Shown here: one piece after another, positions 5-11,128 of the stretch
How the letters are laid out: each line of letters starts with the position of its first letter
How positions within the stretch are numbered: the first letter of the stretch is position 1
Origin: Geomonas azotofigens
GTDB lineage: Bacteria > Desulfobacterota > Desulfuromonadia > Geobacterales > Geobacteraceae
Assembly (NCBI RefSeq): GCF_018919395.1
Contig: NZ_JAHLME010000003.1
Coordinates: 62,001-126,000, forward strand
DNA: 64,000 bases
Direction: 5' to 3'
Translations under genes and position numbers: made by a program
The notes under the pieces: model-generated
The model's database searches: none
Seen by the model: only the letters and a program-made list of their open reading frames with translations
What the model was told of the DNA's origin: nothing

Positions 5-1222
5 CTAAACTATGGAAAAGTTGGTGTGGATGGTCTTTTGCAAATCCTCGATGAGGAGCAGCGCCTGTCTCATCCGTTCCCTCTCGTCACTGGGGAGCGA
101 GTACGGGTTCAGGTAGTAGGCGTCGTTCTGAATCCCCTTGATCACCTTGATCTGGAGCAGGATGCGGTGCTTGGTGAGGATACGGTAGGCGGCCACGAGC
201 CCGCGCGCCATGTTGGCGGAGAAGCTGTGCTCCTTTTCCAGGAGCTCGATCCGCGTCACCGTCGAGGTGGCGGGGATCCCCTGGTTGATGGCCAGGATGC
301 GCACGTTCATCACCAGGGGAGCCCAGGCCAATAGTTTCAGGTTGAAGGAGCCCTTGTGCTCGCCGCTTCCCTCGGTCCAGAACCGCTTCAGGAAACCAAG
401 GGCCAGCTTCATCTCGGTGGCGGCCTTGGCCATGCCCCAAAGGGCCATGAAGTAGTCCTGCAACAGGGCGCGGATCAGGGAGACCAGCTTGCCGGCCAGT
501 TCGGCGTCGCCGGCCACGAAGCGGGCGTCGGAGAGGACGATGAGGTCCATCATGTTCTTGCCGTAGTCCTCGGTCTCGTAGCGCACGATGGCGTGCAGAC
601 GGCGCTGCCACTGCGACAGTGAGCCGCGCCAGTTGTCGTTGACCGGCATGATCCCGCCGCTGCACTTCTTGAAGCCGATCTCGGCCAGCCGCTCCACCAG
701 GATCCGGCTGTACTCCTGGAAGTAACGGTCGGCCGCCTCGCCCCCGTCGTCGCTGTAGACGATCAGGTAGTCCTGGTCGGTGATGAGGGTCTGCTCCTCG
801 CGGCCGTCGCTCCCCATGCTGATGAGGGCGAAGGGGACCGGCGGGGGGGAGGGCATCTCCGCCGCGACCAGTTCCAGCGCCCGCCCGGCCAGGGCGTCGC
901 GGTACCAGGTGCAGTTCTCGTGCAGGGCGGTGACGGAGTAGAAGTTGAGGAAGCGCTCCATCTCGAGGAGGTTCAGTTCCTCGTGGAGCTTCAGGAGCGC
1001 CGCATAGTCGGTCTCGGCCGCCACCCGCTCGATGATGGCTTCTTCCCGCCCGGAGTACAGGCGCAGCTTGCCCAGCTCCTCGGAGGTGTGCCACACCAGC
1101 CCTTCCAGCAGCTTCTTCCCCTCGTCCCGGTCCAAAAGCGGCAAGAAGGCATGCACCTCCCCCAGCAACTCCGAAAGGAGTTCCCCGTCGCCTGGCTCCG
1201 GTGGGTAGATCTGATGGGGCAT
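5..1222 (-). CDS. DUF294-type nucleotidyltransferase-like protein
   Basis: 405 aa. The motif GSDGREEQTLITDQD at residues 137-151 is the GSxGRxEQ...TDxD signature of the DUF294 nucleotidyltransferase-like fold, related to the GlnD/GlnE catalytic domains. Residues 1-120 are helical and about 260-400 fit the companion C-terminal helical domain. Many family members also carry N-terminal cNMP-binding and CBS domains; this one has none. The ATG at 1220-1222 follows an AAGAGGTGG ribosome site. It lies downstream of the acetate symporter on the same strand but behind that gene's terminator. DUF294 proteins often neighbour acetate symporters in proteobacteria, so a signalling role tied to carboxylate uptake is plausible. 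Substrate unknown. Confidence 0.8.
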   Translation of the reverse strand: MPHQIYPPEPGDGELLSELLGEVHAFLPLLDRDEGKKLLEGLVWHTSEELGKLRLYSGREEAIIERVAAETDYAALLKLHEELNLLEMERFLNFYSVTALHENCTWYRDALAGRALELVAAEMPSPPPVPFALISMGSDGREEQTLITDQDYLIVYSDDGGEAADRYFQEYSRILVERLAEIGFKKCSGGIMPVNDNWRGSLSQWQRRLHAIVRYETEDYGKNMMDLIVLSDARFVAGDAELAGKLVSLIRALLQDYFMALWGMAKAATEMKLALGFLKRFWTEGSGEHKGSFNLKLLAWAPLVMNVRILAINQGIPATSTVTRIELLEKEHSFSANMARGLVAAYRILTKHRILLQIKVIKGIQNDAYYLNPYSLPSDERERMRQALLLIEDLQKTIHTNFSIV

Positions 1223-1370
1223 GCGCGGCCACCTCTTATTAAATCTGCTGGCGTTGATTCTACAGAAAAAAACGGTGATGTAAAACTGTTTTGCTGATAA
1301 CCAGAACGATTCGTTGACTTTTTTCCACTCGGTGCAGCTGGGAAGGGGAAGAAACGATTAGGCGCCGGAC

Positions 1371-1401
1371 AAAAAAATTGGGGAAGGTTTCCCTTCCCCA
1401 A
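1371..1401 (-). terminator. intrinsic terminator after actP
   Basis: Perfect 10-bp stem (TTGGGGAAGG / CCTTCCCCAA, loop TTTC) at 1378-1401. Seven A residues precede it on the plus strand, giving a T-run after the hairpin on the minus strand. It lies 25 nt beyond the actP stop. Confidence 0.85.
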
Positions 1402-1426
1402 TTCCATGCTGCCGTGTTGCTGGAGC

Positions 1427-3421
1427 TTAGTGCTCGACTGCCTTGGCCATACCCAAACCGGTGTTCTGGCGGACGTAGACCTCGTCGAACATCTCCTCCG
1501 AGCGCCTGTTCGGGAAGGCCAGGGCGCCCAGGATGGCGGCCATGAAGCCCAGCGGGATGGAGATGATGCCCGGGTTCTTCAGGGTGAAGAGCGGCTTGTC
1601 CAGGCCCACGATCGAGGTGCCGTCCTGCTGAGCGTCGACCTTCGCCTTGGCGAGCGCCTTGGCGTCCTTCTCGGAGAGGGTCTGGCCGGCAGGAAGTGCT
1701 GCCTGCTTCTTCTCCATGGCGGCTACCACCTTCTTGGCGCCGGCGGCTACCACTTTCGGGTAGGTCATGTTGGGGGATACCATCACCAGGCCGATGGAGG
1801 CGATGGTGCCTACCAGCAGGCCGGAGATGACGCCGCCGGTGTTGAACTTCCTCCAGAAGAGGGACAGGATGACGACCGGCAGGTTGCCGGAGGCGGCGAC
1901 GGCGAAGGCCAGTGCCACCAGGTGGGCGACGTTCTGCTTCTCGGCAGCGAGGCCGATCAGGATGCCGCAGGCGCCTACCACGAAGGAGGTGGCGCGGGCT
2001 GCGAAGACCTGCTCGTGCTGGTCGGCGTGGCCGTCCTTGATCACGTTCACGTAGATGTCGTGGGCGATGGCCGCGGAGGCTGCCAGTACCAGGCCGGAGA
2101 CCACGGCGAGGATGGTGGCGAAGGCGACGGCGCACAGGAAGGCGAGGAAGAGATCGCCGATGACCGGGGCGATGTCCGCGCCCATCTGCTGCGCCAGCAT
2201 CAGGGTAGCCATGTTGCCGCCCGGGTCGATGGCGGTGATCCCCTGCGGGGTCAGGTGGATGGCGGCGCCGAAGCCGAGCAGGGTGGTCAGGATGTAGAAG
2301 CCGCCGATGATGAACATGGCGATGATGACGGACTTACGTGCGGCCTGCGCGGTCGGCACGGTGAAGAAGCGCATCAGGATGTGCGGCATGCCGGCGGTGC
2401 CGAGCACGAGGGCCATGCCCAGGGAGATCTGGTCGAGCGGGTTCTTGAGGTACAGACCGGGCTCGAGGAAGCGCTGCCCGGCGTCCATGCCGGAGAGGAT
2501 GACGCCGTCTTTGAGCACCAGCTTGGAGACGTGGTCCTGGATGTCCGGGCTGGACACGATGGTGGAGAAGAAGCCGATCGGGTTGAAGCCCGCCTTGATC
2601 ATGACCAGGAAGGAGAGCAGGAAGGCGCCCGACATGAGCAGGCCCGCCTTGATGATCTGTACCCAGGTGGTGGCGACCATGCCGCCGAAGACGACGTAGC
2701 CGACCATGAGGACGCCGACGCCGATGATGGACATCTTGTAGGGGATGCCGACCAGAAGGGCCATCAGCTTGCCGGCACCGACCATCTGTGCGGTGAGGTA
2801 GAAGGTGGAGACCGCGACGGTGGAAATGGCGGCGAAGGCGCGTACCGGCTTGGGCGAGGTCCTGAAGGAGAGGATGTCGCCGAGGGTGTACTTGCCCGCG
2901 TTGCGGCAGGGTTCCGCCACGATCAGAAGCACCGTGATGTAGGCCACCAGCCAGCCGACCGAGTACATGAACCCGTCATAGCCGTAGAGCGAGATGAGGC
3001 CGGAAATACCCAGGAAGGAGGCCGCCGACATGTAGTCGCCCGCGATGGCCCAGCCGTTCTGGGTGCCGGTGATGCCGCCGCCCGCTGCGTAGAAGTCCGC
3101 TGCGGACTTGGTCTGCTTGGCTGCCCAGACCACGACGCCCATGGTGACGGCGATGATGATCATGAACATGCCGATGGTGATGGTCTTGTTGGTCTTGAGC
3201 TCTTTCTTGACCGGTGCGGGTGTCGCGGGGGCAGGGGCGGCCACGGCAGCGGCCGTGTTGGCCGCCGGTGCGGCTGCGGTCGCGGCGGGTGCTCCCTGGG
3301 CTGCCGGGGCACTCATCGCCGGCGCTGCGCCGGCTGCCGGCGCCTTCTGCTCATCTGCGTAGGCTGCTGCGGCTACCGAGAGGGCCAAGCTGGCTGCTAT
3401 GAATATCTTCTTGATGGTCAT
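1427..3421 (-). CDS. actP: sodium:solute symporter, acetate permease family (ActP-like)
   Basis: 664 aa, SSS-family sodium/solute symporter of the ActP branch, predicted to import acetate or similar short carboxylates. The SSS core starts near residue 80, with KSAADFYAAGGG at about 105 and GDYMSAASFLG at about 129, followed by many membrane helices. ActP of E. coli is about 550 aa. The extra length here is a signal-peptide-like N-terminus (1-22) plus an Ala/Pro-rich stretch (about 26-72) before the first core helix, and a charged Ala/Lys-rich insertion of about 60 residues before the last helix. AAAGGAGG precedes the ATG. The gene lies 16 nt downstream of its DUF485 partner, as in yjcH-actP. 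Substrate is inferred from family and context. Confidence 0.87.
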   Translation of the reverse strand: MTIKKIFIAASLALSVAAAAYADEQKAPAAGAAPAMSAPAAQGAPAATAAAPAANTAAAVAAPAPATPAPVKKELKTNKTITIGMFMIIIAVTMGVVVWAAKQTKSAADFYAAGGGITGTQNGWAIAGDYMSAASFLGISGLISLYGYDGFMYSVGWLVAYITVLLIVAEPCRNAGKYTLGDILSFRTSPKPVRAFAAISTVAVSTFYLTAQMVGAGKLMALLVGIPYKMSIIGVGVLMVGYVVFGGMVATTWVQIIKAGLLMSGAFLLSFLVMIKAGFNPIGFFSTIVSSPDIQDHVSKLVLKDGVILSGMDAGQRFLEPGLYLKNPLDQISLGMALVLGTAGMPHILMRFFTVPTAQAARKSVIIAMFIIGGFYILTTLLGFGAAIHLTPQGITAIDPGGNMATLMLAQQMGADIAPVIGDLFLAFLCAVAFATILAVVSGLVLAASAAIAHDIYVNVIKDGHADQHEQVFAARATSFVVGACGILIGLAAEKQNVAHLVALAFAVAASGNLPVVILSLFWRKFNTGGVISGLLVGTIASIGLVMVSPNMTYPKVVAAGAKKVVAAMEKKQAALPAGQTLSEKDAKALAKAKVDAQQDGTSIVGLDKPLFTLKNPGIISIPLGFMAAILGALAFPNRRSEEMFDEVYVRQNTGLGMAKAVEH

Positions 3422-3437
3422 GTCCTGTCCTCCTTTC

Positions 3438-3749
3438 CTAGAGATGTAATTCGTCGATCAGTTCCCTGGTCAACCGGTCAAAGTCCTTGTTGGCGACGTG
3501 CGAGTAGTAGAGTGCAATCCCCCAGGAGACGAAGAACTGGGAGAGTGCGAAGATGTACCCGAAATTGATGACGCCGATGATTTTGACCTTGAAGATTCCC
3601 GGTGTGTAGGCCGCCCCGATGGGGAGCAGGAAATAGTACACACAGGAGAAAATCCACCACCCGAAAAGGAAGGCCGTCTTCTTGTGATGTAGCTCCACGA
3701 ACTTGGGATTTTTTGCGATTGCTTTCCAGTCGTACTGTTTTTCTGCCAT
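3438..3749 (-). CDS. DUF485 membrane protein (YjcH-like symporter partner)
   Basis: 103 aa with two hydrophobic segments (about 29-47 and 62-82) and a charged N-terminus, the DUF485/YjcH pattern. These proteins almost always precede an ActP-type symporter and are presumed accessory subunits. An in-frame GTG nine bases upstream lies inside the AAAGGAGTG ribosome site, so the ATG at 3747-3749 (MAEKQY) is the better start. The gene is the first of a two-gene operon with actP, 16 nt apart. Its promoter must lie in the long AT-richer leader to the right. Function beyond the conserved pairing is not known to me. Confidence 0.88.
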   Translation of the reverse strand: MAEKQYDWKAIAKNPKFVELHHKKTAFLFGWWIFSCVYYFLLPIGAAYTPGIFKVKIIGVINFGYIFALSQFFVSWGIALYYSHVANKDFDRLTRELIDELHL

Positions 3750-4553
3750 GGTTGTCACTCCTTTCTCAGTAAGATGCGTTGCGGCGGCGTCCCGCCCCTC
3801 TGGTTTCAGTTCCCGATAAATCCCCCTTTCCGATCTCTAAATTTTGTTTCTAAAACCGTCTAAGCTGTTTTGCTGAAAATGGTTAAAGCGTTCTGTTTGG
3901 AGCGCTGCTTTGCAAGTTGCTGTTTTTGCGGAGTTGACTCGTTTGGGTGGCCCGTCGGTGCGTTCGGCGTCGGTCCTTGGCCCCCTCGCATTTTGCGTAT
4001 ACGTGAGTTTGTTGTATCACATGATTTTCAAATGTACAATAAAAATAAACAGCGTTCTAAATAAATTGATACCCAAAAAACGGGTTGTTCTACGATCTGG
4101 TTGCGTGCAACTATTTTAAATCACAACTCAAAAAAGAAAAGCACCCGTTAAATTATTTTTTATTATTGTTGGGCGGCGGCACGGGATGGCCGATTTTGGA
4201 GGTTTTCGTGGTGCCGTTTTGCGATCCGCTCAAACGCTGTCGCATTATTGTGTCAAACATTCCGGTTACTCAATTTCGTGGTCCGTCACGGCCGCCAACG
4301 CACTATTCCACGGTAAAGACGTTGTTCCTTGGAGCCAGCGGCAGGTTCCGGACTGGCTTTGGGAACTCCATGTATCTTAGTGAGGCCTGCTGATGCATGG
4401 CAATGAGTGGAAAGGTCGGGAGTGATGGGGAAATGGTACTGAAAAAGATGATCGTTGTGAGAGTACTGTGAATGTCGTGATGGTGAGATATTATGAAATA
4501 GATTTAAGTAGGTGACGGCGTTTTATTTGATAGGTATTTGGTGTGGAGAAATG
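3750..4553. other. long AT-richer intergenic region upstream of DUF485-actP
   Basis: About 800 bp without a convincing gene, clearly more AT-rich than the flanking DNA, especially 4000-4180. Open frames here (for example 4085-4393 plus) lack a ribosome site and have unusual composition. The actP promoter, on the minus strand, should lie here, but I see no clean -35/-10 or -24/-12. Single TTTTGC or TTTGCA half-sites occur near 3868-3930, resembling halves of the dyad at 6380-6566; no full dyad is present. Confidence 0.5.
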
Positions 4554-4590
4554 GAAAAACAAAGGGGAAGCCTGGATAGGCTTCCCCTTT
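4554..4590 (-). terminator. intrinsic terminator after the 350-aa membrane protein gene
   Basis: Perfect 12-bp stem (AAAGGGGAAGCC / GGCTTCCCCTTT, 6-nt loop) at 4561-4590, followed on the minus strand by GTTTTT. It closes the 6218-4617 operon. Confidence 0.88.
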
Positions 4591-4616: not shown

Positions 4617-5669
4617 CTACACGTGTTTTTCCGTTGTCAGTCTGCGTGACGGTCCGTTCATCCGGATGGCCGCGGCGAACTCCATCCAGAAGATGAGATA
4701 GATGGAAACCATCAGGGAGAGCCCGATGTTGGCGTTCTCCGGCCCGAGCGCCTTGCTCAGGATGGGCGAGGCGAAGCCGGCGCCCAGGGTCCCGGTGGCC
4801 CGCTCCAGGAGGTAGAAGACGGGGAGGGTGATCAGAGTCCCGGCGAACATGATGGCGATGCCGCGTCCCCGTTTCACCCAGTACTTGGGCGAGAAGCCGA
4901 ACATGCGCATGAATATCACCACCAGGATGATCCAGACCGAGTAATCCACCGCCGCGTCCGGGAGCGCCAGCTTGTTCTTGACCAGGGCCACCTCGAGGAT
5001 GGTGACCGCGAAGAGCAGCACGAACATCCAGTTGAACTTCTCGTTGGCCTGGGTCTGCCAGTTGCGGCTGTCCGGTGCGGCGGTCTCGCGCATGGAGTGG
5101 TTCGGCGTCCCCAGCGCGGAGAAGAGGATGGCGAACCAGATGCCCGCGTTGTGGAACAACAGCGAGGCGTGGTTGCCGGCGACGTTGGCGATGCGGGACA
5201 TGGGGTCGCGGGCGAAGTCGGCGGCGATGCGCATCAGGAACAGGTTCACGATCACCGAACACATGATGATCACGGTCAGGGTGAAGATGCGTCGCGGCAG
5301 GAGGTACGGGTCGATGCGGTCCGGGAAGCCCAGGATGAAGGCGAACCAGATCAGGTACATGATGAGCGGGATGCCGAGACAGATGCCGTACACCGAGTTG
5401 CCGGCGAAGTCACCGTTTTGGGCGTAGATGATGTACTTCTCGTCGTTGTCCGGGTCGGTGTTGACCGCCTGGACCACTTCCTTGGGTACCTTCTTCACGT
5501 GGGGGAGGAGCCCCATGCCGTACCAGCCATGGTCGCCCTGCGTGGTATCCACCACCCAGTACTGGTCCCCCATCATCTCGTCGAGTCCCTGGAAGATCCT
5601 GAGCGAGAAGGTCGCGCAGAGAACGACGACGAGTAGCAGAAGAATCACGTTTGAAAATTTCATCGGCAT
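4617..5669 (-). CDS. uncharacterised multi-pass membrane protein
   Basis: 350 aa; I do not recognise the family. The N-terminus is a hydrophobic anchor (about 7-22). A soluble segment rich in D, W and G (about 28-90, with DQYWVVDTTQGDHGWYGMG) follows, then about six or seven membrane helices, and a basic C-terminus. A notable segment is GNHASLLFHNAGIWFAILFS, where His and Asn enter a membrane helix. The ATG at 5667-5669 is preceded by AGGAGG at 8-nt spacing. It is the last gene of a three-gene unit started by a sigma-54 promoter and closed by a strong terminator, and it lies between a double-Cache kinase/regulator pair and ActP. A transport or redox membrane role linked to carboxylate use is only an inference. 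Confidence 0.85.
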   Translation of the reverse strand: MPMKFSNVILLLLVVVLCATFSLRIFQGLDEMMGDQYWVVDTTQGDHGWYGMGLLPHVKKVPKEVVQAVNTDPDNDEKYIIYAQNGDFAGNSVYGICLGIPLIMYLIWFAFILGFPDRIDPYLLPRRIFTLTVIIMCSVIVNLFLMRIAADFARDPMSRIANVAGNHASLLFHNAGIWFAILFSALGTPNHSMRETAAPDSRNWQTQANEKFNWMFVLLFAVTILEVALVKNKLALPDAAVDYSVWIILVVIFMRMFGFSPKYWVKRGRGIAIMFAGTLITLPVFYLLERATGTLGAGFASPILSKALGPENANIGLSLMVSIYLIFWMEFAAAIRMNGPSRRLTTEKHV

Positions 5670-5700
5670 GTGATGTTCCTCCTAATCGGCGCCGGGCGCG

Positions 5701-5952
5701 TTATTCCTTGTGGGTGGTCCAGAACATGGAGACCGCGTTGGCGGCAAAGAGGCCGTAGAGCCACATGGTGTTCCAGGCAGGCCCGGACCAGTGGCTGCCG
5801 CGTCCGCCGCCGACCACACCGGAGGCGATCACGATGCCGATCATGGCGGTGAAGGCTACCATGGCGACGGCGCGCAGGATCGCCGAGTTGCGCCAGGTAT
5901 GCCGCTCCAGCTCCTCAAGCCTCGAGAGCAGTTCAAGTTCTTTTTCACTCAT
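5701..5952 (-). CDS. small two-helix membrane protein, hypothetical
   Basis: 83 aa. A short charged coiled region (MSEKELELLSRLEELERH) is followed by a hydrophobic helix (about 26-48), a Gly/Ser/Trp-rich turn (GGGRGSHWSGPAWN) and a second helix (about 60-77). AAAGGAG precedes the ATG. It is the middle gene of the sigma-54 unit, 31 nt upstream of the 350-aa membrane protein, so it may be a small subunit of the same complex. I do not recognise the family. Confidence 0.75.
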   Translation of the reverse strand: MSEKELELLSRLEELERHTWRNSAILRAVAMVAFTAMIGIVIASGVVGGGRGSHWSGPAWNTMWLYGLFAANAVSMFWTTHKE

Positions 5953-6020
5953 CGCCGTTCTCCTTTTCCATAGTAATGCAGGGCTGCTTTGATTCGCCCC
6001 CGCCCGGATTCACCCGTCGG

Positions 6021-6218
6021 CTACACCAGGCAGAGGTTGGAATCGAGTTGTCCCACCGGCACCCGGTCGGACAGCTCCTGGTATTTGAGGCACTCCCGGT
6101 GACGGCAACTGCAGAAGGTGATGATCTGCTTGACGTCGTGCGGCGAGATGTAGCCGCAACCCACGTCGCAGTAATCATCATTTTTGCCGAAGAAGGGGCA
6201 GACCGTTGCTTCCTGCAT
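6021..6218 (-). CDS. small cysteine-rich protein, hypothetical
   Basis: 65 aa with Cys at 7, 17, 21, 37, 39 and 44, in the order C-x9-C-x3-C, then CSCRHREC. This suggests a bound metal or Fe-S centre. No signal peptide. The start (MQEATVCPFF) has GAGG four bases upstream, rather close. It is the first gene behind the sigma-54 promoter at 6269-6284, with a leader of about 40 nt. A longer frame in another phase covers the same bases, but the Cys spacing and promoter position favour this one. No family recognised. Confidence 0.65.
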   Translation of the reverse strand: MQEATVCPFFGKNDDYCDVGCGYISPHDVKQIITFCSCRHRECLKYQELSDRVPVGQLDSNLCLV

Positions 6219-6268
6219 AGGACCTCATACCTTTTACAACGTAAAGAAAGGGTGACGTAGACAGTATT

Positions 6269-6284
6269 AGCAACTGCCGTACCA
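6269..6284 (-). promoter_or_regulatory. sigma-54 (-24/-12) promoter of the 6218-4617 operon
   Basis: On the minus strand the sequence reads TGGTACG-GCAG-TTGCT, one mismatch from the consensus TGGCACG-N4-TTGCW with exact GG-to-GC spacing. Expected start of transcription is near 6258, about 40 nt before the first gene. The gene for a sigma-54-dependent regulator ends 310 bp upstream on the same strand. Confidence 0.8.
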
Positions 6285-6379
6285 ATTTGCCGTTTACCTC
6301 CTTTATCGTTGTAAAGTGCAGTTAAAACAGCGCGTTGTGCGGCGGCCGTCGCGTGCTGCCACGAGCGCCGGGCGGGGGT

Positions 6380-6397
6380 TTTTGCAGAATCGCAAAG
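6380..6397. promoter_or_regulatory. activator-site dyad, copy 1
   Basis: TTTTGCA-GAAT-CGCAAAG, a 7-4-7 dyad centred about 130 bp upstream of the predicted sigma-54 transcription start. It shares its pattern with the three other copies. Confidence 0.6.
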
Positions 6398-6517
6398 AAA
6401 GATTAAAGGGGGATCCGGCGGGAGTTAACCTTCGAGGGGACACGGCGATTTCGGAGGGGCGGTTTAAAATGGCGTTAAAACGGTAGTTTGTGCGGTTGGT
6501 GCGGGGGGAGTGCCTGC

Positions 6518-6535
6518 ATTTGCACGCGTGCAACG
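6518..6535. promoter_or_regulatory. activator-site dyad, copy 2
   Basis: ATTTGCA-CGCG-TGCAACG, the same 7-4-7 dyad, centred about 270 bp upstream of the predicted start and 31 bp (about three helical turns) from copy 3. Confidence 0.55.
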
Positions 6536-6548
6536 ACGCGGCGCCGGT

Positions 6549-6566
6549 TTTTGCAATGCTGCAAAA
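6549..6566. promoter_or_regulatory. activator-site dyad, copy 3
   Basis: TTTTGCA-ATGC-TGCAAAA, a perfect 7-bp dyad with a 4-bp centre, lying 30 bp beyond the stop codon of the regulator gene. Confidence 0.62.
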
Positions 6567-6594
6567 GCGGGCGCCCTGTTTCCGGCACGCATTT

Positions 6595-7977
6595 TCAGCT
6601 GTTGTACTCGTCCTTCCTGATCCCGTATTTCTTGATCTTTCTATAGATGGTGGCCATGTTGGTGCCCGCTTCCTTGGCGGCCGCCTCCACGTTGCCCTGG
6701 TTCTTGCGCAGAAGCCCTCTCAGGTACTCGGTCTCGAAGCGCATCAGCGCCTTGGAGTATTCCCCCTCCTCGGAGAGCGGCTCGCCCGCCGTGTCGTTGG
6801 GGACCACCTCGATGAACTGGGACAGCACCGGCAGGGTGATGTAGTCGCTGCTTTCCATGGCGATGCACGCCTCGATCACGTTCTTGAGCTGCCGGATGTT
6901 GCCCGGCCAGGCAAAGTCCACCGCGGCCTCCATGGCGTCGTGGGTGAGCCCCTTGATGTGGGTGCCGAACTTGGAGTTTTGCAGCGAGATGAAGTGCGCG
7001 GCCAGCAAAGCGATGTCGTCCCGGCGCTGGCGCAGCGGGGGGAGGTGGATGTTGACCACGTTCAGGCGGTAGTAGAGGTCCTCGCGGAAGTCGCCCGCCT
7101 TGACGGCCTGCTTCATGTCGGCGTTGGTGGCCGAGAGGATGCGGACGTCGACCTTGGTCGGCGTGGGGTCCCCGAGCCGGTTGAACTCCTGCTCCTGGAG
7201 AAAGCGCAACAGGGTCTTTTGCACGGTCATGGGGAGGTTGCCCACCTCGTCCAGAAAGAGCGTCCCCCCGTCGGCGGTCTCCAGGAGGCCGCGCCGGTTC
7301 TCGGTGGCGCCGGTGAAGGCCCCCTTCTTGTAGCCGAAGAGCTCGCTCTCCAAAAGGGAAGCGGGGAGGGCGCCGCAGTTGATGGCGACGAACTTCTTCT
7401 CCTTCCTGGGGGAGTTGTAATGCACCGCCTGGGCGATCAGCTCCTTGCCGGTGCCTGACTCGCCGGTGATGAGCACCGAGGTGTCGCGCACGGCGAGCTT
7501 CTCGACCCGCTCCAGCACCTCCTTCAGCGCGGTCGAGGCGCCGATGATGTTGCCGAAGTTGAAGCGCCCCACCAGTTCCTCGCGCAGTTCGCGGTTCTCC
7601 TCCATGAGCCGGGTGTGCTGCAGGGCGTTCTTGACCCGGTACAGGAGCTCCTCGGGCTCGAAGGGCTTGGTGAGCATGTCGTAGGCGCCTTTTCTCAAGG
7701 CCTGGATGGACATCTCCACGGTGGCGTAGGCGGTCACCATGATCACCGGAATGGCGGGGTCCTTCTGCTTCACCTTCTGCAGCAGTTCCAGCCCGTCCAT
7801 CCCCGGCATCTTGATGTCGGTGACCAGGAGGTCCCACTGTCCGGCCTGGAAGCTCTCGGCGGCCTCGAAGCTCCTGGTGAACGCGGACACCGCGTACCCG
7901 TTATCCGAGAGGACCGCCTCCATCATCCGGCACAGCCCCTCCTCGTTGTCTACCAACATCACCCGTTTCTTGGTCAT
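6595..7977 (-). CDS. sigma-54-dependent response regulator (NtrC family)
   Basis: 460 aa with receiver, AAA+ and HTH domains. The receiver (1-120) has D10-N11 and phosphoacceptor D54 (LVTD). The AAA+ domain has Walker A GESGTGKE at 172-179, an intact GAFTGA sigma-54 contact loop at 219-224 and Walker [11 protein letters not shown] near 237. A Fis-type HTH is near 425-455 (GNVEAAAKEAG...TIYRKIKKYG). It lies 37 nt downstream of its kinase on the same strand. The sigma-54 promoter at 6269-6284 and the dyads at 6380-6566 lie directly downstream and are its likely target. Another dyad at 10164-10181 suggests control of its own operon. Confidence 0.93.
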   Translation of the reverse strand: MTKKRVMLVDNEEGLCRMMEAVLSDNGYAVSAFTRSFEAAESFQAGQWDLLVTDIKMPGMDGLELLQKVKQKDPAIPVIMVTAYATVEMSIQALRKGAYDMLTKPFEPEELLYRVKNALQHTRLMEENRELREELVGRFNFGNIIGASTALKEVLERVEKLAVRDTSVLITGESGTGKELIAQAVHYNSPRKEKKFVAINCGALPASLLESELFGYKKGAFTGATENRRGLLETADGGTLFLDEVGNLPMTVQKTLLRFLQEQEFNRLGDPTPTKVDVRILSATNADMKQAVKAGDFREDLYYRLNVVNIHLPPLRQRRDDIALLAAHFISLQNSKFGTHIKGLTHDAMEAAVDFAWPGNIRQLKNVIEACIAMESSDYITLPVLSQFIEVVPNDTAGEPLSEEGEYSKALMRFETEYLRGLLRKNQGNVEAAAKEAGTNMATIYRKIKKYGIRKDEYNS

Positions 7978-8014
7978 GGACCTACTCCGTCAGCCGCGCT
8001 CGGGCGGCGGTAAT

Positions 8015-9985
8015 TCAGCAGTAATCTTCCCTTTTCAAGGGGAGGCGCACCTCGACCGTGGTCCCGGCGCCGATCTCGCTCTCTATGCCGATCTTGCCGT
8101 GATGCTGCTCCACGATCTGCCTGGTGATGGCGAGCCCCAGCCCGGTCCCCTTGACCTTGGTGGTGAAGAAGGGTTCGAAGATCCGCTCCATGTGTTCCGG
8201 AGAGATGCCGGCGCCGTTGTCGCGGAACTTGAGGCTCACCCACTCCTCGCCCCCCGGCTCGGTGCTCACCACGAGCTCGCCCCCCTTCTGCATGGCCGCG
8301 CCGGCGTTGAGGATCAGGTTGATGGCCACCTGGCGCAACTGGTCGCCGTCCACCATGATCGGCGGCAGGGTGTGGTCGAAGCTTTTCTTCACGGTGACGT
8401 GGTGCATGTCGGTGTGGTTCGCGGCGAAGTCGACGATCTGCTCCAACAGCTCGTTGATGTTGGTCTCCTCCAGCACCGGCTGCGGCGTCCGGGCATAGGA
8501 GAGGAGGTCCTGGACGATCTTCTTGCAGCGCTTGCTCTCGCGCTTGATCTCGTGGATGAACTTGTAGTTCGGGTCCTCAGGCGTCAGCTTCTTCTCGATG
8601 TAGGCCGCGTATCCCAGGATGACCCCGAGCGGGTTGTTGATCTCGTGGGCGACGCCCGAGGAGAGGACGCCAAGCGAGGCCATCTTCCCCTGCTGGGCGA
8701 GGTTCGCCTCCAGCTCCTTGTTGTGCTTGATGATCCTGGTCATCCGGTTGAAGGCGTGGGCCAGCTCGCCCAACTCGTCCTCGCTCTCAACCGGCATGGT
8801 CTCGTCCAGCCTTCCCTGCTTGACCTTGCGGATCACCTCGATCATCCGGCTGATCGGCTCGGTCATCACGCGCGAGGCGAGCAGCACCATGAACACCGAC
8901 AGCACCGAGACCAGGATGGTGAGGACCACCATGCTCTCCAGGATGCGCCCCTTGATGGCGTTGGCCTCCTGGTAGAACTCCTCCTCGTAGGAGCCGACGG
9001 CGACGATCCAGTTCCAGGGTTCGAAGTACTCGTAGCGCACGATCTTCATGCGCGGCGCCTCGTCCCCCTTGTTTTTCCAGGGGTAGCGGATCCAGCCGTT
9101 TTTGCGCTCGCACATCTCCTTGATGAAGTGCTGCCCGTTGAAGTCGACGGCGTTGAGGAAGTTACGCCCCTCGCCGGTTGGGTGGATCATGAAGTTGCCC
9201 GAGCTGTCCATGGCGAAGATGTAGCCGGTCTTGCCCACCTTCTTGCTCTTGATCTTCTCCTTGAGCGCCTCGAAGGAGCGGCGCTCGAAGGCCAGGTCCT
9301 CGTAGGTCTCCTCGAGGTACCCGCCGGCGGCGATGATCCAGTCCCACTCCTTGAAGTAGCGGTAGGCCACCACCTTCTTCCTGAGCGACTTGTCGCCCAG
9401 CGCCGTGTTCTTCCAGGGATAGACGATGTAGAGGACCTCGCCCGGCTTGGCGTTGTGCGCCTTTTCGATCATCTCCTTGATGAAATAGCGGCCGGTCTCG
9501 TCCCGGCTGCCGGAGACGTTGGCGCCCTCCTGGGCCACGTGGACCTTCAGCTCGCCCCGGCTGTTCATGGCGTAGATGTAGCCGGTCTTGCCGACGTTCA
9601 CCTTGAGGAGCGCGTTTCTGGCCTCGCGCATGGCGGTCGCCAGGTCCATCCGCCCGGACTTTTGCAGGTTGTGCTGGCTCTTGACGACGTTGTAGGCCAG
9701 TTCACTCACCGTCTTCAGTTCTTCGTGGAAGGTCTTTTCCTTGTCCTGCTTGTAGACCTGGAACTGCTGGTAGTGTGAGTTCAACAGGTCGACCGTGAAC
9801 GAGGCCATGTGCTGCAGGTCGTCCTTGCTGGTCTGGGTGATGCCGAGGTAGGCCTGCTTGGTGGAGATGTAGCCGATGATGCCACCCACCAGGAAAATGG
9901 GGATGATCACCAGGGGGAGCACCAGGACCACCATCTTCCAGCGCAGTTTCAGGTTCTTTATGACATTGAAGAGATATCTCTGCAC
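8015..9985 (-). CDS. double-Cache sensor histidine kinase
   Basis: 656 aa. Transmembrane helix at about 18-40, then a periplasmic region with two tandem Cache modules, each with a GKTGYI(Y/F)AM segment (132-140 and 251-259) and a W-(D/N)-W-I motif (214-217, 324-327). A second membrane helix lies at about 350-370. HAMP (371-420) follows, then the dimerisation/phosphoacceptor motif SSGVAHEINNPLG with H447, and an ATPase domain with DNGAG and GTGLGLA. Cache domains commonly bind small carboxylates or amino acids, which suits the acetate-symporter context, but the ligand is not known. The start is a GTG with a purine-rich GGGGGAG very close upstream. Partner of the regulator at 6595-7977. Confidence 0.92.
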   Translation of the reverse strand: MQRYLFNVIKNLKLRWKMVVLVLPLVIIPIFLVGGIIGYISTKQAYLGITQTSKDDLQHMASFTVDLLNSHYQQFQVYKQDKEKTFHEELKTVSELAYNVVKSQHNLQKSGRMDLATAMREARNALLKVNVGKTGYIYAMNSRGELKVHVAQEGANVSGSRDETGRYFIKEMIEKAHNAKPGEVLYIVYPWKNTALGDKSLRKKVVAYRYFKEWDWIIAAGGYLEETYEDLAFERRSFEALKEKIKSKKVGKTGYIFAMDSSGNFMIHPTGEGRNFLNAVDFNGQHFIKEMCERKNGWIRYPWKNKGDEAPRMKIVRYEYFEPWNWIVAVGSYEEEFYQEANAIKGRILESMVVLTILVSVLSVFMVLLASRVMTEPISRMIEVIRKVKQGRLDETMPVESEDELGELAHAFNRMTRIIKHNKELEANLAQQGKMASLGVLSSGVAHEINNPLGVILGYAAYIEKKLTPEDPNYKFIHEIKRESKRCKKIVQDLLSYARTPQPVLEETNINELLEQIVDFAANHTDMHHVTVKKSFDHTLPPIMVDGDQLRQVAINLILNAGAAMQKGGELVVSTEPGGEEWVSLKFRDNGAGISPEHMERIFEPFFTTKVKGTGLGLAITRQIVEQHHGKIGIESEIGAGTTVEVRLPLKREDYC

Positions 9986-10163
9986 TGCTCCCCCGGAAAA
10001 ATCCGTTTTCTTTTTGCCGCGATTGTCGTAAGTCTGTTTGAGTAGCAGGGCGGTATTTTGCTTTGGCTTACCGGCTTTGCGTTAGCCAAACAGCTTTTTG
10101 CAAACACTATCGGTACAGTATGCGCGATACTACCGTATACGGTGTGGGAAATGCCAGCCCTTT

Positions 10164-10181
10164 TTTCGCAATTTTGCAAAA
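10164..10181. promoter_or_regulatory. activator-site dyad, copy 4, between the kinase gene and the DUF2156 gene
   Basis: TTTCGCA-ATTT-TGCAAAA, matching the 7-4-7 dyads at 6380-6566. It lies in the divergent region, about 180 bp upstream of the kinase start and about 42 bp upstream of the rightward gene, where it overlaps that gene's candidate -35 box. Confidence 0.55.
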
Positions 10182-10194
10182 AAATGAGTATACT
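10165..10194 (+). promoter_or_regulatory. candidate sigma-70 promoter for the DUF2156 gene
   Basis: TTCGCA, 18-bp spacer, TATACT at 10189-10194. The -10 is good and the -35 is weak (4 of 6). The expected start leaves a leader of about 20 nt. Confidence 0.4.
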
Positions 10195-10222: not shown

Positions 10223-11128
10223 ATGGAGATTCCACGTTACCCGCAAAGCCGCGCCCTCGACCTGCAGGACAAGCCCCTGCTGGACCGGCTTTTCGCCGAG
10301 TTGCAGCCCCGCATTTCGGAACTGACCTTCGCGAACCTGTACCTGTTCCGCAAGGTGCACGAGTACCGGCTGACGCTTCTGGGTGACGCGGTGTTGGCGC
10401 TGGGGCGCGGCTATGACGGCTGCGCCTATTTTCTCCCTCCCTTTGGCGGCGACATCGCCGGCGCGACCGGTGAGCTTCTGGACCAGGGACTTACCTTGTA
10501 CGGCGCCGATGACGCGTTCCTGGCGCGCTACCTGGAGGGTGGGGACGGTGTCGAGGCGATCGCGGATCGCAACAACTTCGACTACCTGCACCTGAAGGAG
10601 GAGATGGCGCAGCTCAACGGGAAGCAGTACCACAAGAAGAAAAACCGGGTGAACTACTTTCTCAACCGCCACCGGCACCAGGTGGAGATACTGAACGACG
10701 GGCATCTCCCGGGGACGCTGGCCCTCCTGGAGGAGTGGGGGCGGGTCAGGACGGAGATCGTGCCGCGGGGGACGGGGCAGGGAGGCTCGGTGCAGGGGGA
10801 GATCGAGGGCGCGGCGGAGGCGCTCAGGCTGCACCGGGAGTTGGGGCTTTCCGGGGTGGTGATCCTGGTCGATGGTGTCGTGCGTGGCTTTGCGCTCGGG
10901 GAGAGGCTGAACCGGGAGACGGCGGTCTGTCACTTCGAGAAGGGGGATCTCTTCATGGAGGGGCTGTACCAGTTGCTGGACCGGGAGTTCTCCCGGCTGT
11001 TGTTCACCGACTGCAGCTACCTGAACCGGGAGCAGGACCTCGGCGAGGAGTCGCTGCGGCAGGCGAAGCTCTCCTACCACCCGGTGGAACTGGTGGTGAA
11101 GTATCGGGTGAGGAAAGGGAGGGGCTAG
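10223..11128 (+). CDS. DUF2156 (GNAT-fold) family protein
   Basis: 301 aa. The sequence fits DUF2156, a double GNAT-like fold related to the catalytic domain of aminoacyl-phosphatidylglycerol synthases. Supporting segments are the N-terminal ELTFANLYLFR (about 33-43), HYKKKNRVNYF-like QYHKKKNRVNYFL (about 137-149) and the C-terminal G-x2-LNRETAVCHFEKGD. There are no membrane helices, so it is a soluble acyl- or aminoacyltransferase-like protein of unknown substrate. The ATG has GGGAGA nine bases upstream. The stop codon lies in the heptamer AGGGGCT-AGGGGCC that also recurs at 25073. It is convergent with mnmH, 22 bp apart. Confidence 0.75.
   Translation: MEIPRYPQSRALDLQDKPLLDRLFAELQPRISELTFANLYLFRKVHEYRLTLLGDAVLALGRGYDGCAYFLPPFGGDIAGATGELLDQGLTLYGADDAFLARYLEGGDGVEAIADRNNFDYLHLKEEMAQLNGKQYHKKKNRVNYFLNRHRHQVEILNDGHLPGTLALLEEWGRVRTEIVPRGTGQGGSVQGEIEGAAEALRLHRELGLSGVVILVDGVVRGFALGERLNRETAVCHFEKGDLFMEGLYQLLDREFSRLLFTDCSYLNREQDLGEESLRQAKLSYHPVELVVKYRVRKGRG

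Follow-up and report, generated by a model that had tools for sequence, protein, structure and literature searches.

A candidate sigma-54 regulon for monocarboxylate uptake in Geomonas azotofigens and its relatives, with a transporter-associated cysteine domain and two undescribed membrane proteins

A stretch of 64,000 nucleotides from Geomonas azotofigens (assembly GCF_018919395.1, contig NZ_JAHLME010000003.1, positions 62,001 to 126,000 of the forward strand; the whole stretch is called the window here) encodes a sensor histidine kinase and an NtrC-type response regulator next to an operon for a four-cysteine protein of 65 residues (C65) and membrane proteins of 83 and 350 residues (M83 and M350). 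We regard it as likely that these genes belong to a dedicated and widespread sigma-54 regulon for the uptake of C2-C3 monocarboxylates, namely acetate, L-lactate and possibly propionate or pyruvate. In this genome the regulon probably comprises the C65-M83-M350 operon, the genes of a SatP-family transporter and of a lactate-type MFS transporter, and the kinase/regulator genes themselves. That the elements form one regulon, as an earlier note on this DNA had held, is strongly supported by the conservation of the sites in relatives, by the joint absence of sites and pair, and by dyads in front of transporters fused to C65.

In the mechanism that we propose, the dual-Cache kinase would bind the acid outside the membrane and phosphorylate the regulator, which would then occupy two or three dyads of the form TTTYGCA-N4-TGCRAAA, about 90-120 and 200-290 bp upstream of a -24/-12 element, and from there activate sigma-54 polymerase by looping. 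Its targets would be the L-lactate-type MFS, the SatP-family acetate transporter and the C65-M83-M350 operon, and a dyad upstream of the kinase gene would provide feedback on kinase and regulator expression. C65, probably metal-binding, would work alongside MFS and SatP, and the M83-M350 pair would most likely assist or perform carboxylate transport.

Dyads and sigma-54 promoters in the genome and its relatives

The kinase (8015..9985, minus strand) contains, by domain scan, a dCache_2 region of two Cache modules followed by HAMP, HisKA and HATPase_c, and the regulator (6595..7977, minus strand) has the receiver, the AAA+ domain with an intact GAFTGA and the Fis-type helix-turn-helix of NtrC-family activators, seen by domain scan and in the translation; both had been recognised in the earlier note. 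Another trait of that family, a -24/-12 element downstream of paired sites, is found at the proposed targets except before the kinase gene. Three dyads of pattern TTTYGCA-N4-YGCAAAR had been claimed between regulator and operon. The distal one (6549..6566, TTTTGCA-ATGC-TGCAAAA) and the proximal one (6380..6397, TTTTGCA-GAAT-CGCAAAG) fit exactly, the latter with two mismatches to the symmetric form, whereas the middle one (6518..6535, ATTTGCA-CGCG-TGCAACG) departs at two positions and is weak; the related loci L054, L058, L064, L065 and L067 likewise have weak dyads, at roughly 30-32 bp from the distal site. The fourth, TTTCGCA-ATTT-TGCAAAA (10164..10181), is exact and lies 179 bp upstream of the kinase start.

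Measured from start to start, the proximal dyad is 113 bp upstream of the -24 element in TGGTACG-GCAG-TTGCT, which is present on the minus strand at 6269..6284 as described earlier; transcription of the operon would be expected to start near 6258. C65 (6021..6218), M83 (5701..5952) and M350 (4617..5669) follow on the minus strand in the order previously given, and the operon closes with a terminator-like stem-loop with a T tail (4561..4590, minus strand), a call that rests on stem length and position, a scan having counted three of them in the region and 5.9 in shuffled sequence.

With up to one mismatch to TTTYGCA-N4-YGCAAAR, the window holds five matches on both strands against 0.12 expected, and none of 100 shuffles reached five. 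The whole genome has four exact symmetric dyads, those at 6549 and 10164 together with one before SatP and one before MFS, and none of the mirrored pattern. At up to two mismatches there are two dyads upstream of SatP and three upstream of MFS, each set with a -24/-12 element, and the distances from element to proximal dyad are 101 bp (SatP, whose element has two mismatches) and 113 bp (MFS). Two other sites were set aside as chance: C12:519546, with one mismatch and no -24/-12 element, between secG- and tpiA-like genes, and C4:21590, with two mismatches.

The genome and its relatives were searched for dyads accompanied by a -24/-12 element, a check suggested in the earlier note, and both recur before the operon, MFS and SatP, the dyads being conserved in relatives that share the gene order. 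Across 39 genomes, this one included, there are 80 exact symmetric dyads against four mirror controls, and 77 of them are found upstream of a regulon gene, be it the operon, kinase, MFS or SatP (73 of 75 positions listed first and four of five others, namely MFS in G007, G020 and G022 and the kinase in G022). Among 33 upstream regions of C65, at least two dyads (up to two mismatches) occur in 32, L242 having one, and the -24/-12 element in 32, all save L075. SatP of the genus has dyads and element in 15 of 15 cases, and MFS genes outside the M350 operon have a dyad in 27 of 27 and the element in 23; this set counts the pair-less G020 and excludes G032 as well as G026 and G029, where the gene immediately follows M350. 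The kinase gene is preceded by a dyad in 19 of 24 regions and also in G022. From these upstream sets, genes that were absent or below 58% identity were dropped, and the kinase entry of L082 is a spurious short match.

A wider contig search yielded 80 loci from Geomonas, Citrifermentans, Geotalea, Trichlorobacter, Pelotalea, Geomobilimonas and many metagenome-assembled genomes. After leaving out loci with no C65, with less than 300 bp or in duplicate, 73 upstream regions remained, and 71 of them carry a dyad and a -24/-12 element. Among 4716 control windows taken elsewhere in those loci, a set that may itself contain regions upstream of a kinase or MFS gene, only 2 have a dyad before such an element.

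In 98 promoters, reduced from 110 by k-mer similarity and leaving out MFS genes inside operons, the distance between proximal dyad and -24 element clusters at 89-94, 100-104 and 111-117 bp, successive classes differing by roughly a helical turn; all three classes occur at the operon, MFS has mostly 111-114 bp and SatP mostly 101-104 bp. A phase test on the 88 promoters with spacings of 85-130 bp (ten of the 98 fall outside) gave p < 1e-17 for periods of 10.5-11.5, with nine periods tried and no correction for kinship. Such turn-wise spacing is consistent with a looping mechanism in which the regulator has to face the polymerase.

The kinase/regulator pair, its predicted ligand and targets

The pattern of occurrence points to the pair as the binder of the dyads. 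The kinase was found in 32 of the 39 genomes. Where M350 is present and the DNA upstream can be read (33 genomes; G035, whose contig ends at the operon, was excluded), 30 genomes have kinase and dyads and three have neither (Fisher p ~2e-4), these three (G024, G030 and G033) belonging to one genus and possibly recording one event. They have no kinase and no regulator ortholog, and their loci show no dyad, no -24/-12 element and, within the 14-17.5 kb judged, no C65; M83-M350 is kept, about 100-236 bp behind a topA-like gene. G027, of the same genus, has kinase, regulator, dyads, promoter and C65. Furthermore, G032 has kept SatP (87% identity) and MFS (64%) in the absence of the pair, and there SatP has no dyad and MFS a single site with two mismatches. 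The contig of G022 ends 139 bp behind its kinase, and its regulator status is not readable. The recognition segment of the regulator is largely conserved in 76 orthologs (Tyr445, Arg446 and Lys447 in 73 of 76) and differs in 11 paralogs.

Autoregulation, as claimed earlier, is suggested by the dyads before the kinase and may be of either sign; we found no -24/-12 element at 10164. The dyad at 10164 overlaps a sigma-70-like hexamer pair (10164-10194) facing a divergent LPG_synthase_C gene at 10223. In L054, L067 and L069 the dyad is 80-104 bp from the kinase, with the LPG_synthase_C gene farther off or outside the locus.

The second Cache module of the kinase matches, by sequence, the sensor domains 4exo, 4k08 and 5g4y. 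In PscD, the residues Tyr90, His103, Tyr143 and Lys156 hold the carboxylate, and the ligands given in the part of the source consulted are glycolate, acetate, propionate and pyruvate (PMC5062169). Both modules of the kinase have the same Tyr-His-Tyr-Lys tetrad. Among 59 distinct orthologs it is complete in all 59 for module 1 and in 58 for module 2, where one sequence has a gap; a separate alignment of 40 sequences shows the tetrad as well. These residues predict C2-C3 monocarboxylates as the ligand. The small-carboxylate sensing put forward in the earlier note is thus a prediction from sequence, backed by homology and by invariant ligand residues.

The transporter genes are of matching kinds. 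SatP, of the GPR1/FUN34/YaaH family, passes the NCBIfam model AceTr_1 (NF038013) with 139.1 against a cut-off of 50 bits, and MFS passes that of the L-lactate transporter SfMCT (NF049980) with 404.9 against 320 bits and matches the solved L-lactate transporter (6g9x, 6hcl). The MFS gene of G014 (C1:1322358-1323660) consists of two overlapping pieces in different frames and looks frameshifted. Adjoining the operon in the window (5-3758) are genes for an acetate-type symporter (SSF), a DUF485 and a DUF294 protein, neighbours that are kept in most loci of the genus; as a target of the regulon this cluster was ruled out, related loci being without a dyad there and no -24/-12 element standing upstream of DUF485.

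C65 and the M83-M350 pair

C65 has four cysteines (7, 17, 36 and 43) kept without exception in 62 stand-alone sequences and 14 others, and Cys21 varies. It has no Pfam or NCBIfam match at E 0.01, and Pfam up to E 5 gave only sub-cut-off hits that we take as chance; an AlphaFold2 model from 62 sequences (mean predicted local distance difference test, pLDDT, 60.4) was judged too poor for a fold search. A profile search of 395 genomes of the phylum found 24 positive, eight within the order Geobacterales, where C65 is a separate protein, and 16 outside it, and outside the order most matches form the N-terminus of larger frames. Eleven loci (L311, L314-L322 and L325, the last weak at E 9e-4) have C65 fused to an L-lactate-type MFS and two (L312, L313) to SatP; in addition, L323 is a C65-type protein adjoining a SatP-like gene. 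The transporter part was assigned by NCBIfam and Pfam in the ten proteins scanned and by tblastn in the others, and in those ten the C65 part has no counterpart among Pfam or NCBIfam models. Each fusion was read as one open frame beginning at its first start codon, and separate internal starts are possible.

The 15 fused or extra C65 loci were picked out by protein sequence only, and each carries two or more dyads (up to two mismatches) near the gene start, as against none of 152 control windows; the mirror pattern gave 0 sites against 34. The -24/-12 element is present in ten of the 15 (not in L318-L322), and the kinase/regulator pair adjoins 12. The regulator was sought in 31 of the 395 genomes, a set that was not random (the 16 C65-positive ones outside the order, G100, G320 and 13 C65-negative ones): an ortholog occurs in 15 of the 16 positive genomes and in one of the 13 negative ones (Fisher p ~3e-6). 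Because of the fusions, the adjacency of the pair and this co-occurrence, C65 travels with pair and transporters more than with M83-M350. In our reading, C65 is a four-cysteine domain, probably metal-binding, that would work with monocarboxylate transporters.

Two further arrangements of C65 were seen. In L316, L318, L320 and L322, Pfam places a HisKA domain, a histidine phospho-acceptor, without an ATPase between C65 and MFS, and L319 and L321 have the same H-box. The genome G025 has a second stand-alone C65 beside the pair (L324, 4535-4723), with its own dyads and -24/-12 element. An extended and rather doubtful version of our proposal would make C65 the third part of a sensor-regulator-transporter circuit, a metal or redox domain that reports flux or redox state to the pair, with C65-HisKA-MFS as a covalent co-sensor form and M83-M350 as a new class of monocarboxylate permease.

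The earlier note had also spoken of a membrane system that was not described. To the extent of Pfam, NCBIfam and, for M350, PDB sequences, this holds for M83 and M350, which have no Pfam or NCBIfam match at E 0.01 (Pfam to E 5 gave only sub-cut-off hits, taken as chance), the M350 profile finding in addition no hit among PDB sequences at E up to 10. It does not hold for the regulon as a whole, where monocarboxylate transporters of known kinds also occur, and the Cys-rich protein is a domain associated with transporters. M83 is 84-100% identical across 21 sequences. M350 occurs in 34 of the 39 genomes, with 72-99% identity in relatives. Within the order 106 of 141 genomes have it, and within the phylum sample 10 of 395; it was not found in the eight genomes listed for genus g261 of the family. 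In G443:C5 it lies in fragments and in G487:C53 only a short piece is left, and the gene may be decaying in some lineages. The AlphaFold2 model of M350, built from 78 sequences, has a mean pLDDT of 52.7 and was judged too poor for a fold search; with the basic residues placed on the inner side, it suggests, at low confidence, eight membrane helices and one extracytoplasmic loop at about residues 34-90.

Alternative explanations and known systems

Several observations weigh against the proposed regulon. Three of the 80 exact dyads do not precede one of its genes: that of G038 is within a coding frame, and those of G023 and G033 are in genomes without the pair. The G033 site (L247 4874-4891; G033:C440:9873) follows the gene of a paralogous NtrC regulator at a distance of about 480 bp, and a similar site may serve another regulator. 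Conversely, G020 has no kinase or regulator ortholog and its MFS retains one exact dyad and a -24/-12 element. At up to two mismatches, dyads in the Geomonas azotofigens genome number 36 against 29 for the mirror control, and because these counts are close, weak dyads were counted in upstream regions only. No recognised -24/-12 element stands before four of the 27 MFS genes, and none was found before the kinase gene in the upstream regions of relatives; L118 has a promoter without a dyad and L124 dyads without a recognised promoter. Six more distant SatP-type genes (36-47% identity), one of them in the pair-bearing G027, have no dyad and no -24/-12 element. G046 has the regulator and no C65 match, and G217, counted as C65-positive, has a partial, weak C65 match and no regulator. 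In G. sulfurreducens, GSU2490, an oxalate-formate antiporter gene that may or may not be orthologous to this MFS, has an RpoD promoter according to the part of the source consulted (PMC2725144). Finally, the related genomes are not independent of one another.

Some of these points would suit a different reading, in which some other dimeric regulator, such as one of the Crp/Fnr type, occupies the dyads and the neighbouring pair is incidental. Crp/Fnr-type sites can also have an N4 centre, and the dyad of the pair-less G020, the G033 dyad near another NtrC-type gene and the kinase dyad without a -24/-12 element all fit such a protein. We nevertheless consider it very improbable: pair, dyads and promoter are jointly absent within one genus, the pair adjoins 12 of the 15 dyad-bearing C65 loci, the recognition segment is kept in orthologs and not in paralogs, and the sites mostly lie 90-117 bp upstream of the -24/-12 element with turn-wise spacing. 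It is also unlikely, if somewhat less so, that the pair is a repressor system, that it answers another ligand such as a dicarboxylate or an amino acid, or that the transporters export. Against this stand the tetrad for C2-C3 carboxylates in both Cache modules, the need of -24/-12 promoters for an activator, and the naming of AceTr_1 as an uptake family in NCBIfam. In its favour, the nearest NCBIfam models of kinase and regulator are AtoS and AtoC, a system that, in the part of the source consulted, answers acetoacetate (PMC3118216).

It is quite conceivable, if short of probable, that M83-M350 is a module for energy, stress or the envelope whose expression simply accompanies carboxylate sensing, and that it has no part in transport. 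G024, G030 and G033 keep M83-M350 without pair, C65 or MFS, which is a further point against the regulon as proposed; because these three genomes keep it alone, M83-M350 can serve without them, and neither a family assignment nor the M350 model is there to classify it. Gene context nonetheless ties M83-M350 to monocarboxylate transport, as M350 stands directly before the lactate-type MFS in 29 of the 80 contig-searched loci and SatP adjoins the operon in three of the 80, and several invariant charged residues of M350 sit in predicted membrane helices.

Among known systems, DctB-DctD with DctA and MifS-MifR likewise join a membrane kinase, an NtrC-type regulator and a sigma-54 promoter to the use of the sensed carboxylate. 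They serve C4 dicarboxylates or alpha-ketoglutarate, whereas the pocket residues and targets here are of the monocarboxylate type, and we know of no counterpart of C65 or M83-M350 in either. AtoS-AtoC of E. coli, also a sigma-54 system and concerned with short-chain acid metabolism, is the best NCBIfam match of both proteins. Identity with it was ruled out by scores far below the equivalog cut-offs (252.8 against 646 bits for the kinase, 448.7 against 714 for the regulator) and by the site, the AtoC sites given in the part of the source consulted (GCTATGCAGAAATTTGCACA and an inverted partner) differing from the dyads (PMC3118216). LurS-LurR of Desulfovibrio is, as far as the part of the source consulted goes, a sigma-54 pair with two or three upstream sites that acts on lactate genes and permeases (PMC6456213). 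That pair was ruled out as well, for its 16-bp site GTCCGCTTTTTCAGAC is unrelated to the dyads and LurS is a hybrid kinase with three PAS domains (PMC6456213), in contrast to the dual-Cache kinase here.

The Cache sensors PscD, McpP and Adeh_3718 share the Tyr-His-Tyr-Lys residues and, in the same part of that source, bind acetate, propionate, pyruvate or glycolate (PMC5062169); they are chemoreceptors with one Cache module, as opposed to two modules on a kinase. To the SfMCT and SatP/AceTr_1 families, whose cut-offs the MFS and SatP of this genome pass, related proteins add an N-terminal C65 and in some cases HisKA. Among the matches listed in the open-access PMC literature, there was no paper on the dyad site or on the kinase/regulator pair.

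Geobacter-type bacteria use acetate as a main electron donor when they reduce metals or produce electricity. With the site defined, a probable regulator and ligand named and few targets listed, the control of acetate uptake is directly testable. The regulon would also give a first functional context to three conserved unknown proteins, one of which, C65, has a domain that occurs well beyond the order. Taken together, the regulon is of a known kind, similar to DctBD and AtoSC, and as such well supported; what is new is its site, its transporter-associated cysteine domain and its two undescribed membrane proteins.

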